Origin: Oscillospiraceae bacterium
GTDB taxonomy: Bacteria > Bacillota > Clostridia > UBA1381
Assembly: GCA_022509025.1 (NCBI GenBank)
Contig: JAFLUB010000018.1
Location: 1-50,516 of the forward strand
DNA length: 50,516 nt
Direction: 5' to 3'
The notes below the pieces were generated by a model. The model did not search any database and was not told the origin of the DNA. It was given only the letters and a program-made list of their open reading frames with translations. The position numbers were made by a program, and so were the translations under genes. Below are positions 4,547 to 36,718 of this stretch, in pieces (the first letter of the stretch is position 1; each line of letters starts with the position of its first letter).

Positions 4547-6982
4547 CTAATATATCATACCCGGTGATTTGTCTATAATAATGGAAACACCTGCCAGTTC
4601 CTTGTTAGCTCTGCACATCATTTCCGCTTCAGAGAGTTTCTCGCCGAGTTTATCATCATCTTCGCATTTGAAAATAATCTGCCAACGGTATTTATTTTTT
4701 ATTTTTGAAACATAGGACGGAATAGGTCCTAAAACCTGAATTTTCTGTCCCATTTCCTTTATATTCCCCAATGCCTTTACAAAACACCCCGCGCTCTTTG
4801 CTGTGGTTTCCTCTGATGATCCCTGAAACTGCACTCCTACCATTTTGCAAAACGGCGGATACCACAGAAGATGACGCTGGGCTATTTCATTTCTGTAGAA
4901 CTCCTTATATTCATGGGTTTTTACAAGCTTTACCGCCTCATGTTCAGGCGTGTACGTCTGAATAACGGCACGCCCTTCTTTTTCTCCGCGTCCGGCACGG
5001 CCCGAAACCTGTTCAAGCATTGCGAAGGTCCTTTCGCCGCTTCTGAAATCATGTAAATGAAGCATTGTGTCAGCGGTTATCACGCCGACAAGCGTAACAT
5101 TTTCAAAATCAAGACCTTTTGCAACCATCTGCGTACCTATAAGGATATCAATCTTGTCCTTTTCAAATCTTTGGAGAATCTTTTCATGCGATTGTTTTTT
5201 TCCGGTAGTGTCCATATCCATTCTTATGGAGGACGCATTCGGGAAAAGACGATTTATTTCCTCTTCCACTTTTTGCGTTCCGCCGCCAAAATAGCGTATA
5301 TATTTACTGTCGCACTCAGGGCATTTTGTATACGTCGGTCTTATATATCCGCAGTAATGACATTTGAGATTGTTTCCGAACTTATGGTATGTAAGCGATA
5401 TACTGCAGTTCGGGCACTCCGGCACATAGCCGCAGGTGCGGCATGAAACAAACGTTGAGAATCCGCGCCTGTTAAGGAATAAAATTGTCTGCTCTCCTTT
5501 TTGAAGATTTTTCTCTATTTCCTTATATAGCCTTGCAGAAAGCATACTTTTATTTCCGCGCGCCAGCTCGCTTCTCATATCTTCAATATAGATATACGGC
5601 ATTTTATTATTGTTAAAGCGCGTGTTCATCTCAAGAAGAGTGTATTCACCCTCCTGAGCCTTATAATAGCTTTCAACGCTCGGTGTCGCGGACGCAAGCA
5701 CAACCGCCGCGCCCGACTGCTTCGCGCGGAAAATCGCAGTTTCACGCGCATGGTAACGTGGAGACATTTCAGATTTATAAGTATCCGAATGCTCCTCGTC
5801 CATAATGATAATTCCTATATTTTTAAGCGGGGCAAACACAGCGCTTCTGGCGCCTATTACAATATCCGCTCCACCCGATTTTATTCTTTTCCATTGGTCG
5901 TACCGCTCGCCCTGAGACAGAGCGCTATGAAATATTGCGATACAATCCCCGAATCTTGACATAAAACGCGATACCATCTGAGGCGTGAGGGAAATCTCAG
6001 GAACAAGCATAATCGCGCTTTTACCTATGCTGACAGCGTATTCAATCGCCTGCATGAAAACCTCGGTTTTTCCGCTGCCTGTCACACCATGCAGAAGATA
6101 AGTACTGCCGTCACCGTTTTTTACTGATGATGTGATTTTGTTTATAGCCTTTTCCTGTTCAGATGTCGGCGTCATTTTCTCTGTTTTTTCAAACACTCTG
6201 CCGCGATACGGATTCCGCTCCGCTTCTACTTCGAAAACTTCTAAAAATCCTTTTTTTATAAGCGCGGTCAGCGCGCTTATGGTACCGTTTGTAACCTTTC
6301 TAAGCCATATCGCCGGCATTTCACCGTTATCTGCAAGTAACTGAAGCATACGTGACTGCACCGGCGCTTTTGGTCTAAGAGACATCGCTGCCTTTTCCGC
6401 CTCGTCGGCTGTTACCGAAAGACGGACGAACTTTATTTTCTTATCGCGCACCTTAGCTGACTGACGGTATTCTTTTCTCAGTATCCCGTCCTTTACCATA
6501 GCGCGGATTTGATTTTGCACATTTCTTCCGCATCGTTCTTCTAATACGTTATACTCAATTCCTCCGCCGTTATCACGAATAATTGATATAATATTTTTTC
6601 GTATTTCAGACCTTGTCTCTTCTTCCCTGAGAAGAATAATCCATTCCTCACTTTTTACCGATGTTCCCGACGGAACTATGGTGTGGATTATATCAAGATA
6701 AGAGGAAAGATACTTTTTCTTCATCCATTTGATAACGGGAAGCATTTCCTCGTCAAATGCGGGTATGTCATTCGCAAGCTTTATTATGGATTTTATTTGT
6801 CTGCTTTCGCTTTTTTCACAAAATCCAACGCAAAAGCCCTCAACCTCTCTGTTTCCCGAAGAAAACGGTACAAGAACTCTGCTGCCTATACTGATTTCAT
6901 TTTCTAAAAAATCGGGAATGAGGTAGTCAAAAACACGGTCTACGTGTTTTGACCTGCTATCCACAATAATCTTAGCAATCAT
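4547..6982 (-). CDS. priA: Primosomal protein N' (replication restart helicase PriA)
   Basis: Superfamily 2 3'-5' DNA helicase that reloads the replisome at stalled forks. The N-terminal 3'-DNA-binding domain (residues 1 to about 105) is followed by Walker [10 protein letters not shown], the DEEH box, and paired CxxC zinc motifs in the segment starting [13 protein letters not shown] and ending CPEC. The helicase C domain includes [11 protein letters not shown] and the QVSGRAGR motif VI. The length of 811 aa is complete. rpoZ lies 2 bp upstream. In many Firmicutes coaBC sits between rpoZ and priA; it is absent here. Confidence 0.96.
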
Positions 6983-7298: not shown

Positions 7299-7901
7299 TT
7301 AATATTTTTCTGCTAATAATTTATCAACAAGGTCACGCTTTATAACCTTATCACGCATTGTTTCTTCTACTTCTCTGACGCATTCCAAAAGATCGTCATT
7401 CACGAAAATATGGTTATATTTCGGAGATTGCTCCATTTCCCATTTTGCAGCCTCAAGCCGCTCTATAATCTGTTCTTCGGTTTCTCTTCCTCTATCTTCA
7501 AGACGCTGTTTTAAAACTTGCATAGACGGCGGTACTATAAAGATTAATACCGCTTCAGGTGACATTTTTTTTACCTGCAACGCTCCCTGCGGCTCTATCT
7601 CCAAAAGGACATTACGCCCCTCCTGAAGCAAAGCTTCAACGGTTTTTTTCGGTGTACCGTAGTAGTTTCCGCTGTACATTGCGTATTCGAGCATTTCACC
7701 GTTTTCAATCATCTGTTTAAAATTTTCAACTGTCGTATAGTTATACGTTTCTCCGTCAACCTCGCCGCTACGAATTTCCCGCGTTGTGGATGAAACAGAC
7801 AGATACAGGTTGTTCTTGTCATTTTTAAGCAATTCCGCGCAGATAGTCCCCTTACCCGTTCCCGAAGGACCTGATATCACAAATAAAATACCTCTACTCA
7901 T
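7299..7901 (-). CDS. gmk: Guanylate kinase
   Basis: Phosphorylates GMP to GDP with ATP. The P-loop is GPSGTGKGT at about residues 9-17. The GMP-binding segment [18 protein letters not shown] follows, then the lid with [14 protein letters not shown] chose ATG 7901 over an upstream in-frame ATG because it follows a strong GAGGAGGGAG site and gives the usual MSRG N-terminus (200 aa). The start overlaps the end of remA by 8 bases, so translation is probably coupled. Confidence 0.95.
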
Positions 7902-8160
7902 TATTGACCGCTCCCTCCTCATTTGTATCAAAACCGAGTCTTGCCGCCACTGTTTCTGTTTGCAGCGCTGACAGGACTATGTGGTCTGAATCAGTCACAA
8001 TAACCGCTCTTGTCCTTCTGCCGTAGGTTGCGTTTATAAGATTACCCTTATCCTCAGCCTCGCGGATTATACGCTTTATCGGCGCTGATTCCGGACTTAC
8101 AACCGCAATCACGCGTTCGGCATTCACCATGTTGCCAAATCCTATGTTTATAAGTTTCAT
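7894..8160 (-). CDS. remA: RemA/DUF370-family DNA-binding regulator
   Basis: Matches the RemA (YlzA) family, known in Bacillus as an activator of biofilm-matrix and osmoprotection genes that forms ring-shaped DNA-binding oligomers. The family signatures KLINIGFGN and [15 protein letters not shown] are visible. The ATG at 8160 is preferred to a TTG at 8163, giving 88 aa. The ribosome site is weak (GGA about 8 bases upstream) and lies inside the folded element at 8162-8329, so translation may be controlled by that RNA. Position between yicC and gmk is conserved. The target genes in this organism cannot be inferred. Confidence 0.92.
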
Positions 8161-8161
8161 C

Positions 8162-8329
8162 AAATATCCATAGCCTTTCTGCCCACAAACAATAATGATA
8201 AATCTTAACGCGCTTATCGCGGGCAGATAAGGCGTTAAATTGATATTTTGCCCATATGCGTTTCGAAGCTTTGCGAGAAAAATCGCACGGGCAATTAAAT
8301 CTGATTAACGTGAGTTGTCACATTAATCA
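8162..8329 (-). ncRNA. Structured leader element, copy A (cis-regulatory RNA candidate)
   Basis: A ~170-bp element fills the yicC-remA gap; its homolog lies at 35243-35412. Read on the minus strand it folds as P1 (8303-8312 with 8320-8329), P2 (8250-8260 with 8284-8292), P3 (8205-8217 with 8227-8238), a possible pseudoknot from the P3 loop (8219-8226) to 8179-8186, and P4 (8242-8248 with 8162-8168). P4 covers the region just before the remA ATG. Non-Watson-Crick positions in P1, P2 and the pseudoknot become G-U pairs only on the minus strand, so RNA is probably made in the gene direction. The class is not recognised. Riboswitch-like control or a mobile RNA remnant are both possible. Confidence 0.6.
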
Positions 8330-8331
8330 CC

Positions 8332-9210
8332 TTATTCTATATTCTGTATCTGTTCCCTGAGTTTTTCAATCTCACCCTTTAAGGTGACAACTGTTTTGGC
8401 TATTTCTATATCGCTTGCCTTTGAGCCTATTGTATTAACCTCGCGGTTAATCTCCTGAATGAGAAAGTCGAGTTTTCGTCCGGCCGGTTCACCACTGTTA
8501 ATTATTTCATCGAACTCGGCAAAATGGCTTCCAAGTCTTACAGTTTCCTCATTCACCGCCACCTTATCAGCATATATAGCAACCTCGGTGAGCACTCTCG
8601 CCTCGTCAATTTCGTGTCCGTCAAGAACCTCTTTTATCTTCTCATAAAGCCTGTCGCTATACTCCTTAACAGTTTGCGGTGAGCGTTCATCAACAGTTTT
8701 TACGAGTGTACCCATGTATTTAATTCTATTACATAAGTCCTCTTGTATCCTCTCACCTTCGCGAGAACGCATAGCAATAAAGTCACCAAGCGCCTCATCA
8801 AGAACATTTTTGACGCTTTCCCATAGCGCGTCCTCGTCCTCCTCGACTCTGTCAGTCTTGAAAAGCTCCGAATTTCTCGCCACTGTCATTACTGATATAT
8901 CATCTTTCAATCCGAATTCATCACGAAGTTCTTTTAATACATCTATGTAGTTCACAGCGACAGCTTTATTAAGGCTTATTTCTTTATCGGCAGTTTCGTA
9001 ATTTTCAACATTAACGTATACGTCAACCTTACCGCGAGTTATAAACTGAGAAACATGTTTTCTTATTTTATCCTCCAGAAAACCGAGATGTCTTTGCACC
9101 TTTATATTATAATCCGAATATCTGTGATTAACGGACTTTATCTCAGCGAGTATCTTCTTTCCATCGGTTACACTCTCGCGCCTGCCATAGCCTGTCATAC
9201 TTCTAAGCAT
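8332..9210 (-). CDS. yicC: YicC/YloC-family endoribonuclease
   Basis: Member of the YicC family, described as RNases acting on small or structured RNAs in E. coli and Bacillus. It starts with the typical MLRSMTGYGR and ends with the conserved block that begins at EINREVNTIGSK and runs through the KTVVTLKGEIEKLREQ segment. The length of 292 aa is standard. It is the first gene of the minus-strand operon ending in rlmN. A -10 box (9266-9271) lies upstream. Confidence 0.93.
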   Translation of the reverse strand: MLRSMTGYGRRESVTDGKKILAEIKSVNHRYSDYNIKVQRHLGFLEDKIRKHVSQFITRGKVDVYVNVENYETADKEISLNKAVAVNYIDVLKELRDEFGLKDDISVMTVARNSELFKTDRVEEDEDALWESVKNVLDEALGDFIAMRSREGERIQEDLCNRIKYMGTLVKTVDERSPQTVKEYSDRLYEKIKEVLDGHEIDEARVLTEVAIYADKVAVNEETVRLGSHFAEFDEIINSGEPAGRKLDFLIQEINREVNTIGSKASDIEIAKTVVTLKGEIEKLREQIQNIE

Positions 9211-35242: not shown

Positions 35243-35412
35243 TAATCACCATAGCCTTTCTGCCCACAAATAGTAATTTTAAATCATTAACGCGCTTACA
35301 GTGGGCGGATAAGGCGTTAAGCGGTGATTATGCCCATGTGCGTTTTTCCTTTCTTGCGAAAAAAACTCGCACGGGCAATCAAATCTAATTAACGTGATTT
35401 ATCACGTTAATT
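35243..35412 (-). ncRNA. Structured leader element, copy B (cis-regulatory RNA candidate)
   Basis: Homolog of 8162-8329. P1 is a perfect 10-bp hairpin (35387-35396 with 35403-35412). P2 pairs GCCC-GTGCG (from 35332) with CGCAC-GGGC (to 35376). P3 pairs TTAACGC-CTTA (35287-35298) with TAAG-GCGTTAA (35310-35320); its loop (35301-35306) can pair with 35261-35267. P4 pairs GGTGATTA (35323-35330) with TAATCACC (35243-35250) and hides the ribosome site of the lipoprotein gene. P4 sequence differs from copy A but pairing is kept. The trmFO stop codon lies in the P1 arm/loop junction. Class unknown. Confidence 0.62.
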
Positions 35413-36718
35413 CCTCCATATAGTTTAATTGTTTTTTTATTATATCTAAAGCGCGAAGCGCTATTTTATTATACCGTTCGGCTTTATTTCGTATTTTTTC
35501 ATTAAGTCCCTCTATAATCCCGAAGTTAGCGTTCATCGGCTGAAAATTAGTATTAGCGCCGTTTGAAATGTACAATGGGAGCGCGCCTATGCATGTTTTC
35601 GCATCCGCGTCAAGCATTTCTTTTCCCATAAGCATTCTTGCCATATTGAACCCTGCGACTATTCCGCTTGACGCTGATTCCACATATCCCTCAACTCCCG
35701 TTATCTGTCCCGCAAAGAATATTTTAGGATACTTTTTCATCCTGTAATATTTATCAAGAAGCTTGGGAGAATTTATATATGTGTTTCTGTGCATAACTCC
35801 GTACCGCATAAATTCAGCGTCATGAAGTCCCGGTATCATTGAGAAAACCCGTTTCTGTTCGCCCCATTTCAGATTTGTCTGAAATCCGACAAGGTTATAA
35901 AGAGTACCCTCCTTATTATCCTGACGAAGCTGAACCACAGCATAGGAATCGTCTTTTCCGGTTTTAGGATTAACAAGTCCTACAGGCTTTAAAGGACCAA
36001 ACGTAAGAGTTTCAAATCCGCGCTTTGCCATTACTTCAACAGGCATACAACCCTCAAACACCTTGCTGTTTTCAAACTCCTTCACGGGAGCCGTCTCGGC
36101 TGATACAAGCGCGTTATAAAATTCCGTATATTCCTCTTTTGTCATCGGACAGTTTATATAATCCGCAGTTCCTTTGTTATATCTTGCAGCCTTGAACACC
36201 TTGCCTTTATCTATACTTTCCTCTGTCACAACCGGCGCGGCGGCATCATAGAAATACAGCGAGTCACCGCCGGTTATTTCCTTTATGCTTTCGGAAAGCG
36301 TCTGAGAGGTCAGAGGACCTGTTGCGATAATCGTATATTCGCCAGAATCAATGTCCGTCACTTCGTCGTTTATAACAGTTATAAGCGGATTTGACTTTAT
36401 TTTATCAGTTATATACTTCGAGAAAATCTCACGGTCTACGGCAAGCGCGCCGCCTGCCGGGACGCGGCTTATATCCGCCGCTTCCATCATAAGTGAGCCG
36501 AAAAGCCGCATTTCCTCCTTTAAAAGTCCGCAGGCATTTTCTATCCTGTCCGCCTTTAAGGAATTTGAACATACCAGCTCCGCAAAGTTCTCACTCGTAT
36601 GCGCCGGTGAAAACTTTTTCGGCTTCATTTCGTAAAGCTCCACGGGTATATTTCTTTTACTGAGCTGCCACGCTGCTTCACAGCCCGCAAGACCTGCGCC
36701 GATTACCTTTACCTTCAC
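35402..36718 (-). CDS. trmFO: tRNA uracil-54 C5-methyltransferase TrmFO (folate/FAD-dependent)
   Basis: Makes ribothymidine at tRNA position 54 using methylene-THF and FAD. The FAD motif [13 protein letters not shown] opens the protein. [11 protein letters not shown] and the C-terminal [20 protein letters not shown] are conserved. The length of 438 aa is normal. It overlaps topA by 4 bases (ATGA). The last codons (Glu-Leu-Thr-stop) lie inside hairpin P1 of the structured element. Confidence 0.95.

Follow-up and report, generated by a model that had tools for sequence, protein, structure and literature searches.

A small structured repeat between the Shine-Dalgarno sequence and start codon of Oscillospiraceae genes, probably a mobile element that rebuilds the ribosome-binding site

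The 50,516 nucleotide contig JAFLUB010000018.1 of Oscillospiraceae bacterium assembly GCA_022509025.1, the whole of which is referred to here as the window, carries on its minus strand two diverged copies of a small structured repeat: copy A lies directly before remA, and copy B before a lipoprotein-like gene (lipobox judged by eye; no Pfam family). The covariance model R1, the training set of which included both copies, gave two strong matches in the window, 8163-8334 (176.7 bits) and 35244-35418 (180.0 bits), 5' flank included, and its next best match scored 17.5 bits. A preliminary description of this DNA had proposed a two-copy RNA element, which is accurate for the window but not for the genome of this gut bacterium (2.49 Mb, 85 contigs, 87.6% complete), where R1 finds 75 matches: 54 full-length copies on 33 contigs and 21 weaker or partial ones. 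Read 5' to 3', the element starts with hairpin P1 (AACGTG/CACGTT), which a short linker separates from stem-loop P2 (TGCCC GTGCG .. CGCAC AT GGGCA); these are followed by the 5' strand of helix P4, hairpin P3 (TTAACG CTTATC / GATAAG CGTTAA) with a loop, TGCCCAC, that forms a pseudoknot with GTGGGCA, the motif AGAAAGG, CTAT and the 3' strand of P4 (AATnnCC/GGnnATT), which most commonly ends 3 nt from a start codon. The 5' edge of copy A adjoins the ribosome-binding sequence AAGGTGATT and that of copy B the ribosome-binding sequence GGAGGAATT, a feature not mentioned previously and the key clue to the interpretation that we consider probable, namely that this is a non-autonomous mobile element of about 165 bp which inserts in one direction between the Shine-Dalgarno (SD) sequence and the start codon of a gene and rebuilds the ribosome-binding site.

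Insertion is demonstrated by empty orthologous sites at three genes, remA, cmk and purC. At remA, the site is empty in all 13 congeners with a remA match, each having a short SD-bearing spacer followed by the start codon (for example AGGTGATTTAATG, or GGTGATTTTGATG in G014); the site in the present genome reads AAGGTGATT, element, TG, ATG, with the element exactly between the ancestral SD and the ATG. None of 15 congeners carries the element at cmk, where GGAGAAATAATTATG in G004 corresponds to GGAGAAAT, element, AACATG. At purC, 10 of the 11 congeners examined are without the element, a twelfth match being incomplete and unusable, and in G003 the 3' end of the element stands alone (AACAGAAAGGCTATGGTGATTACTATG). 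Excising the element in silico restores a normal distance between SD and start codon: the rejoined aligned spacing is 5-10 nt in 34 of 40 copies, compared with 5-9 nt in 20 of 22 empty orthologs. Target duplication was rejected, as matches between the flank ends occur at the expected frequency (2-nt matches 10 against 7.2 expected, 3-nt 3 against 3.5 and 4-nt 0 against 0.4), and the inverted match between the element ends was just 2 nt in all 36 copies compared.

The position of the element relative to genes is strict. Among 77 places in the genome that match the 19-mer of its 3' end with at most two mismatches, a start (ATG, GTG or TTG, within 14 nt, of an open reading frame (ORF) of at least 40 aa) lies 1-10 nt behind the element in 75; in 67 of these it is an ATG 1-7 nt away, and in 49 the distance is exactly 3 nt. 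On the other side, an SD of at least 4 nt is present in 41 of 42 parsed 5' flanks but in only 284 of 828 control 14-mers, and one of at least 6 nt in 22 of 42 against 9 of 828; in other genomes 28 of 30 copies have a flank SD of at least 4 nt. A single orientation relative to genes is seen. A same-strand ORF (at least 100 codons, within 60 nt) lies directly upstream of 17 of the 42 copies, and in 7 of these, copy B included, the stop codon of that ORF lies within the first bases of the element. In the case of copy B, this is the ORF at 35402-36718, whose stop TGA (35402-35404) is inside the element, the insertion having re-ended that frame.

The genes invaded have no common theme among the 19 of 75 host proteins in this genome that were scanned, two of which had no family; those assigned include RemA, pantothenate kinase (PanK), a glycosyltransferase-28 protein which we take to be MurG, QueC, PurC, Cmk, TrkA, AddB, IlvD, semialdehyde dehydrogenase, TP methylase, Ham1 and a radical-SAM 4Fe-4S protein, presumably NrdG. 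In two species the element stands before an nrdG-like gene, as a full copy in G001 and as a 3' part in G000. The twentieth protein scanned is encoded behind a full copy in G007 (locus L102, from about 1,680), which lies directly before the gene of a large serine recombinase (PF07508, 1.1e-25; PF00239, 6.6e-20); this may be either a chance neighbour or a clue to the enzyme. At another locus (L041) a right-part copy lies directly behind what we recognise as a sequence resembling signal recognition particle RNA.

The element has multiplied in this species and occurs patchily in Clostridia. Allowing three mismatches, the 19-mer was found at 87 places in the genome, 55 of them exact, compared with 2 for a reversed control pattern. 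Among 15 congeners, R1 gave 1-5 matches in nine and none in six. A model of the right part, R2, detected the element in 33 of 95 genomes of the order and in 16 of 27 genera, patchily and with 1-47 matches per genome; as the genome searches scored only some candidates (47 per genome in this survey), these copy numbers are lower bounds. Three other genomes have 26, 19 and 18 matches. The matches listed for a 17-mer of the element included many records of named Clostridia, Ructibacterium gallinarum DSM 107454 being one of them; several matches in other phyla showed no upstream structure among those listed and look like chance. In Ructibacterium gallinarum three matches to the right part were obtained, of which one is strong. 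One copy searched against each of the plasmid and phage collections gave no match; among viral contigs there was one exact 17-mer match (L270), with a full copy. Four head-to-tail units ending near position 5,591 are present at locus L265, an arrangement that would result if every unit had entered the preceding one at its 3' end, just behind the SD, and the same genome holds further close pairs of copies (contigs C24 and C36 of G098). Mobility is thus supported by the empty congener sites, the species-specific burst, the patchy distribution and the tandem copies. The mean terminal branch of the copies is 0.076.

Both copies in the window fold more stably than their dinucleotide shuffles (z -5.07 for copy A and -6.01 for copy B, none of 200 shuffles being as good). 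Alignment A2 was built from the 87 places in the genome. The core motif was present at 57 of them, P1 could be placed in 46 of the latter, and 43 were aligned (L005, L020 and L055 were left out), without selection on P4. All six helices are retained, with 95.5% of cells paired, a share that drops to 34-49% in sliding controls. Cells changed on both sides number 55 compared with 17.8 after shuffling, and 15 pairs are changed on both sides, which bears out the covarying helices first proposed from two copies. P4 is paired in 98.3% of cells, its two variable pairs being changed on both sides 13 and 5 times, and occurs as matched types: AATATCC/GGATATT, AATCACC/GGTGATT and AATCTCC/GGAGATT in this genome, and AATTTCC/GGAAATT, AATTGCC/GGCAATT, AATCGCC/GGCGATT and AATTCCC/GGGAATT among rows collected elsewhere by their exact 3' motif. 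Its pairing and covariation agree with the preliminary description, although it spans seven positions, of which six are paired in copy A and seven in copy B, rather than seven and eight base pairs. P4 counts from the cross-genus alignment A3 (58 rows) are conditioned, most loci having been picked by exact 3' motif and P4 pairing of at least 6/7, and a looser P4 test (91 of 106), which allows chance matches, is not used as evidence. The earlier statement that no known class is recognisable also agrees with Rfam 15, in which there was no match at the gathering threshold in the window and none to the element in 12 other loci; around copy A, four weak and unrelated matches appeared at up to E=10. 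The parts of both copies are listed in Table 1.

Table 1. Parts of the two element copies in the window and adjoining features
Feature	Position	Strand	Basis
Element copy A, 162 bp, AATGTG...GGATATT, before remA	8163..8324	minus	R1 match; edges from empty orthologous sites; letters checked
Ancestral SD of remA, AAGGTGATT, now 5' flank of copy A	8325..8333	minus	Like sequence adjoins the remA ATG of congeners, e.g. AGGTGATTTAATG
Copy A, P1 core hairpin AATGTG/CACGTT	8307..8324	minus	Covariation helix 1
Copy A, extension of P1 3' arm, AATC, complementing flanking target GATT, guide-like	8303..8306	minus	P1-flank test
Copy A, P2 stem-loop TGCCC GTGCG ... CGCAT AT GGGCA	8249..8293	minus	Covariation helices 2 and 3
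Copy A, P4 5' strand AATATCA, pairing own 3' end at 6/7	8241..8247	minus	Covariation helix 4; letters checked
Copy A, P3 hairpin TTAACG CCTTATC [TGCCCGC] GATAAG CGTTAA	8205..8238	minus	Covariation helix 5
Copy A, pseudoknot strand TGCCCGC, in P3 loop	8219..8225	minus	Covariation helix 6
Copy A, pseudoknot partner GTGGGCA	8180..8186	minus	Covariation helix 6
Copy A, element-borne SD AGAAAGG	8174..8180	minus	Near-invariant in A2; complements the usual 16S tail
Copy A, 3' end GGATATT, the P4 3' strand	8163..8169	minus	Covariation helix 4
remA, host gene of copy A; start ATG 8158-8160	7897..8160	minus	Pfam RemA-like PF04025, 7.7e-37
Element copy B, 165 bp, AACGTG...GGTGATT, before lipoprotein-like gene	35244..35408	minus	R1 match; letters checked
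Copy B, 5' flank with SD, GGAGGAATT	35409..35417	minus	Flank SD scan; letters checked
Copy B, extension of P1 3' arm, AATT, complementing own flank AATT	35387..35390	minus	P1-flank test, row L047
Copy B, P2 stem-loop	35331..35377	minus	Covariation
Copy B, P4 5' strand AATCACC	35323..35329	minus	Covariation
Copy B, P3 hairpin	35287..35320	minus	Covariation
Copy B, pseudoknot strand CGCCCAC, in P3 loop	35301..35307	minus	Covariation
Copy B, pseudoknot partner GTGGGCA	35261..35267	minus	Covariation
Copy B, element-borne SD AGAAAGG	35255..35261	minus	A2 alignment; letters checked
Copy B, 3' end GGTGATT, the P4 3' strand	35244..35250	minus	Covariation

Pairings are present at both ends of the element. 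At the left, P1 extends into the flank, such that the bases following CACGTT complement, copy by copy, those preceding AACGTG (GATT/AATC, AATT/AATT, AAAT/ATTT, ACAT/ATGT and TGT/ACA are examples). The Watson-Crick extension averages 2.95 nt over the 42 parsed copies of this genome against 1.85 nt when arms are shuffled among copies, a value reached in 0 of 20,000 shuffles, and for 30 copies elsewhere that share the core AGTGTG/CACACT it is 2.5 against 1.29 (again 0 of 20,000); L015 (0 nt) and L003, L016 and L036 (1 nt each) are mismatching copies. At cmk the flank appears to be ancestral, since G004 shares GGAGAAAT, and hence the arm fits the site there and not the reverse, whereas the flank at purC differs from that of the relatives and does not tell the direction of fit. 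At the right, the 3' end of the element itself, GGnnATT, pairs with AATnnCC, an internal segment that immediately precedes the P3 hairpin. It is possible that these two pairings guide cleavage.

Insertion sequences of the IS200/IS605 family are not known to produce target duplications. The element resembles them in lacking both target duplication and terminal inverted repeats and in having internal segments that pair with the left flank and the right end, for which a guiding role is proposed. For IS608, a member of this family, the part of PMC5934647 available to us likewise describes a left junction at which outside sequence pairs with an internal segment and a right junction at which the element pairs with its own end; insertion there is also 3' of a target that is kept as the left flank, and the right-end partner lies just 5' of a hairpin. 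It differs from them in having no fixed 5' target, the flanks varying (ATT, AAT, CAT, TAT, GTT and others) and tending to match their own arm; the target here is a ribosome-binding spacer of variable letters, matched per copy. The element has no transposase inside it or consistently alongside, no likeness to its sequence was found near Y1 transposase genes, and it carries a replacement SD with a pseudoknot beside it. The IS200/IS605 arrangement is, by analogy, the best mechanistic lead and not a family assignment.

The usual 16S tail is CCUUUCU, of which AGAAAGG is the complement. This motif is near-invariant in A2, and right-part or 3'-end-only copies stand before genes at L062, L063, L065, L066, L074 and L094, with promoter-like sequence upstream (by eye, unscanned); judging from these reduced copies, the 3' end seems to be sufficient as a ribosome-binding site. 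In the mechanism that we propose, the 3' end would rebuild the ribosome-binding site by placing AGAAAGG upstream of the original start codon at an almost constant distance, which would keep the invaded gene translated and allow the element to persist. Two internal segments would act as guides that set the left and right junctions, the left one using base pairing to find SD-like targets in the manner of IS200/IS605 guide sequences, and an enzyme supplied in trans would carry out the chemistry. Whether all of this amounts to a new class of mobile element, in which an internal segment re-matched at each site pairs with the SD flank and so steers the element into the gap before the start codon whilst the 3' end rebuilds the site, is a more tentative matter, and we regard it as possible but rather doubtful.

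Several observations weigh against the interpretation as a mobile element that rebuilds ribosome-binding sites. No enzyme was found. The Y1 transposase PF01797, a candidate driver, shows no association with the element: within the order, 14 of the 33 genomes with the element and 23 of the 62 without it have the transposase (Fisher p 0.66). It is present in G097 and G098 but absent from the copy-rich genomes G032 (16 matches) and G096 (18 matches), although repeated insertion sequences are often lost from metagenome bins. No convincing element ends were seen in 17 stretches bearing Y1 genes (best R2 match E 0.072; no R3 match). Copies of 162-165 bp are too short to encode a Y1 (HUH) TnpA, and among the 54 left-half matches in the genome there was no autonomous copy and no ORF between the halves. 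Only one of these, on contig C57, is without a matching full match, and that contig ends exactly there. The end (base 1; L281) comes directly after the left half, where the ORF of an autonomous relative would lie, or it is a mere assembly break; in G001 one left-half match lacks a clear right half (L112). The match between P1 and flank could stem from compensatory mutation after insertion instead of from guiding. The copy before the nrdG-like gene of G001 reads AGAAATG and not AGAAAGG, which counts against a strict need for the motif. Displaced SDs are not visibly decayed, those of at least 5 nt being found in 36 of 42 copies against 21 of 28 ordinary genes; given the divergence of the copies, this fits continued use of the upstream SD better than mere replacement. 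Insertions may favour strong SDs or be younger than their divergence suggests, or else the upstream SD is still of importance. Finally, the tolerance of G-U pairs on the gene-sense strand only, as claimed in the preliminary description, holds for P3, where the copies show 41 G-U and 14 A-C, but fails when P1, P2 and the pseudoknot are taken together (24 against 42), so that these helices give no support for selection acting on the RNA of individual inserted copies; the totals are 66 against 58 over all A2 helices and 106 against 59 in the 3' part of the cross-genus alignment.

There is the possibility that mobility is mediated by RNA, a minimal intron-like RNA reverse-splicing beside SDs, for which the P1-flank pairing would be the counterpart of an internal guide and 5' exon; such an RNA may also splice out of the mRNA and restore the native SD and ATG. 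Pairing of the upstream flank with a nearby internal segment, a target that directly adjoins the insertion on its 5' side, the lack of target duplication, the strong RNA fold and the undecayed upstream SDs would all suit it. However, no Rfam match, group I and group II introns included, was obtained in the window or the 12 other loci, 162-165 nt is below the size of known self-splicing introns, and splicing would be pointless for the 3'-part-only copies behind promoter-like sequences; on balance we think this unlikely. A remnant of another kind, namely an orphan guide RNA (HEARO/IscB omegaRNA or TnpB reRNA) or other IS200/IS605 derivative, would share the structured RNA, the guide-like pairings, the fixed orientation before genes and the absence of target duplication. 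It is nevertheless very improbable, as Rfam gave no likeness to these RNAs (no search for nuclease genes, IscB or TnpB, was made), neither Y1 association nor convincing ends in the Y1-bearing stretches were apparent, and the position is tied to spacers between SD and start codon.

A role in regulation was the reading first favoured, with a mobile element as its alternative, and the evidence has reversed that order. A vertically inherited, non-mobile riboswitch or leader class with a large regulon would account for the covarying structure, the pseudoknot beside the SD and the nearly fixed position before the start codon, but it is contradicted by the empty sites in congeners; with 54 full copies against a handful in relatives, patchy occurrence in the order and host genes without a common theme, it is hardly credible. 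A metabolite riboswitch was rejected on the same diversity of the 20 downstream genes scanned, which weakens the riboswitch reading generally. Translational control may still travel with the element. The minimum-energy folds of copies A and B, checked per base, pair GCCUU..CUGCCC with GGGCAG-AAAGGC and hide the SD, while in an alternative local fold of P3 plus pseudoknot the SD is free; the conserved GCCUU...CUGCCCAC would thus pair either locally or with GUGGGCAG-AAAGGC, and the element may in this way modulate translation of the host gene, a suggestion weaker than those of guiding and of a rebuilt ribosome-binding site. That the element is both mobile and a domesticated translational switch, retained for such common SD-masking control, is somewhat unlikely. 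Its GCC is near-invariant in A3 (56, 57 and 57 of 58 rows) although a G occupies the two local P3 partner positions in no more than 37 and 40 of the 58 rows, and the 3'-part-only copies before genes, as well as the nrdG-like gene with the element in two species, would be consistent with retention. Against this, the scanned downstream genes are unrelated, 17 of 42 copies stand directly behind a same-strand ORF, and the masking helix hardly varies, so that covariation neither supports nor opposes it. A further candidate, an upstream ORF formed by an SD and a GTG in P1, was rejected as a conserved feature, since its frame breaks (by eye) with the length of the P1 loop, the GTG is GTA in L025 and L059, and P1 has no GTG in L103 and L182.

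A GC-rich hairpin repeat (AAGAACCCGACCCGC...GCGGGTACCCCGGAACCTTGTTGTTTCAC) lies within the P1 loop of six element copies (loci L011, L020, L026 with two copies, L037 and L069) and forms a tandem array in L006 from about 2,500; it is possibly a nested mobile repeat. Similar small glycine-rich genes stand behind copies in three species (L051 in this genome, L106 in G005 and L107 in G002), where an inverted repeat, CCTCC..GGAGG, spans the SD; possibly this is an old shared insertion.

Small non-autonomous repeats as such are a known kind. The element is, like the repetitive extragenic palindromes (REPs) and bacterial interspersed mosaic elements associated with TnpA-REP, small, structured, non-autonomous, present in high copy and suspected of single-strand mobility, but REPs, in the portion of PMC8266576 available to us, are palindromes behind a short conserved motif, whereas the present element comprises three hairpins and a pseudoknot in a strict position before the start codon. 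It shares with the bacterial repeats likened to miniature inverted-repeat transposable elements (MITEs) small size, lack of autonomy and insertion in many copies (PMC2229807, in part); it is not a classical MITE, having neither target duplication nor terminal inverted repeats of more than 2 nt, and differs from these repeats too in sitting between SD and start codon. The MRSC-65-2 motif, likewise structured, covarying and read as selfish, also reaches dozens of copies in a genome; it forms one long stem with a UYCCGG repeat, and the accessible part of PMC11109978 describes no targeting of ribosome-binding sites. Clostridiales-1 RNA (RF01699), judging from the partial record, is likewise a structured RNA of gut Clostridiales, but it has an Rfam accession and the element matches no Rfam family. 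In the accessible portions of the open-licence full-text literature, that is without subscription papers and preprints, no element targeting the spacer between SD and start codon was met with, and as far as checked the target, the rebuilt ribosome-binding site and the pairing with each individual site are new.

As a rule, mobile elements of bacteria either damage genes or lie hidden in the space between them, and here the element brings with it a replacement for the SD that it displaces; few parasites would be so cleanly fitted to keeping the host gene expressed. The complementarity from copy to copy makes testable the idea that a target may be found by base pairing in the absence of a fixed target sequence and, if true, this would be a naturally reprogrammed, base-pairing-guided insertion system aimed at translation starts. 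Should the SD-masking switch prove real, the element would have seeded a shared translational control onto unrelated genes, and would thereby offer a route by which a regulon may originate.
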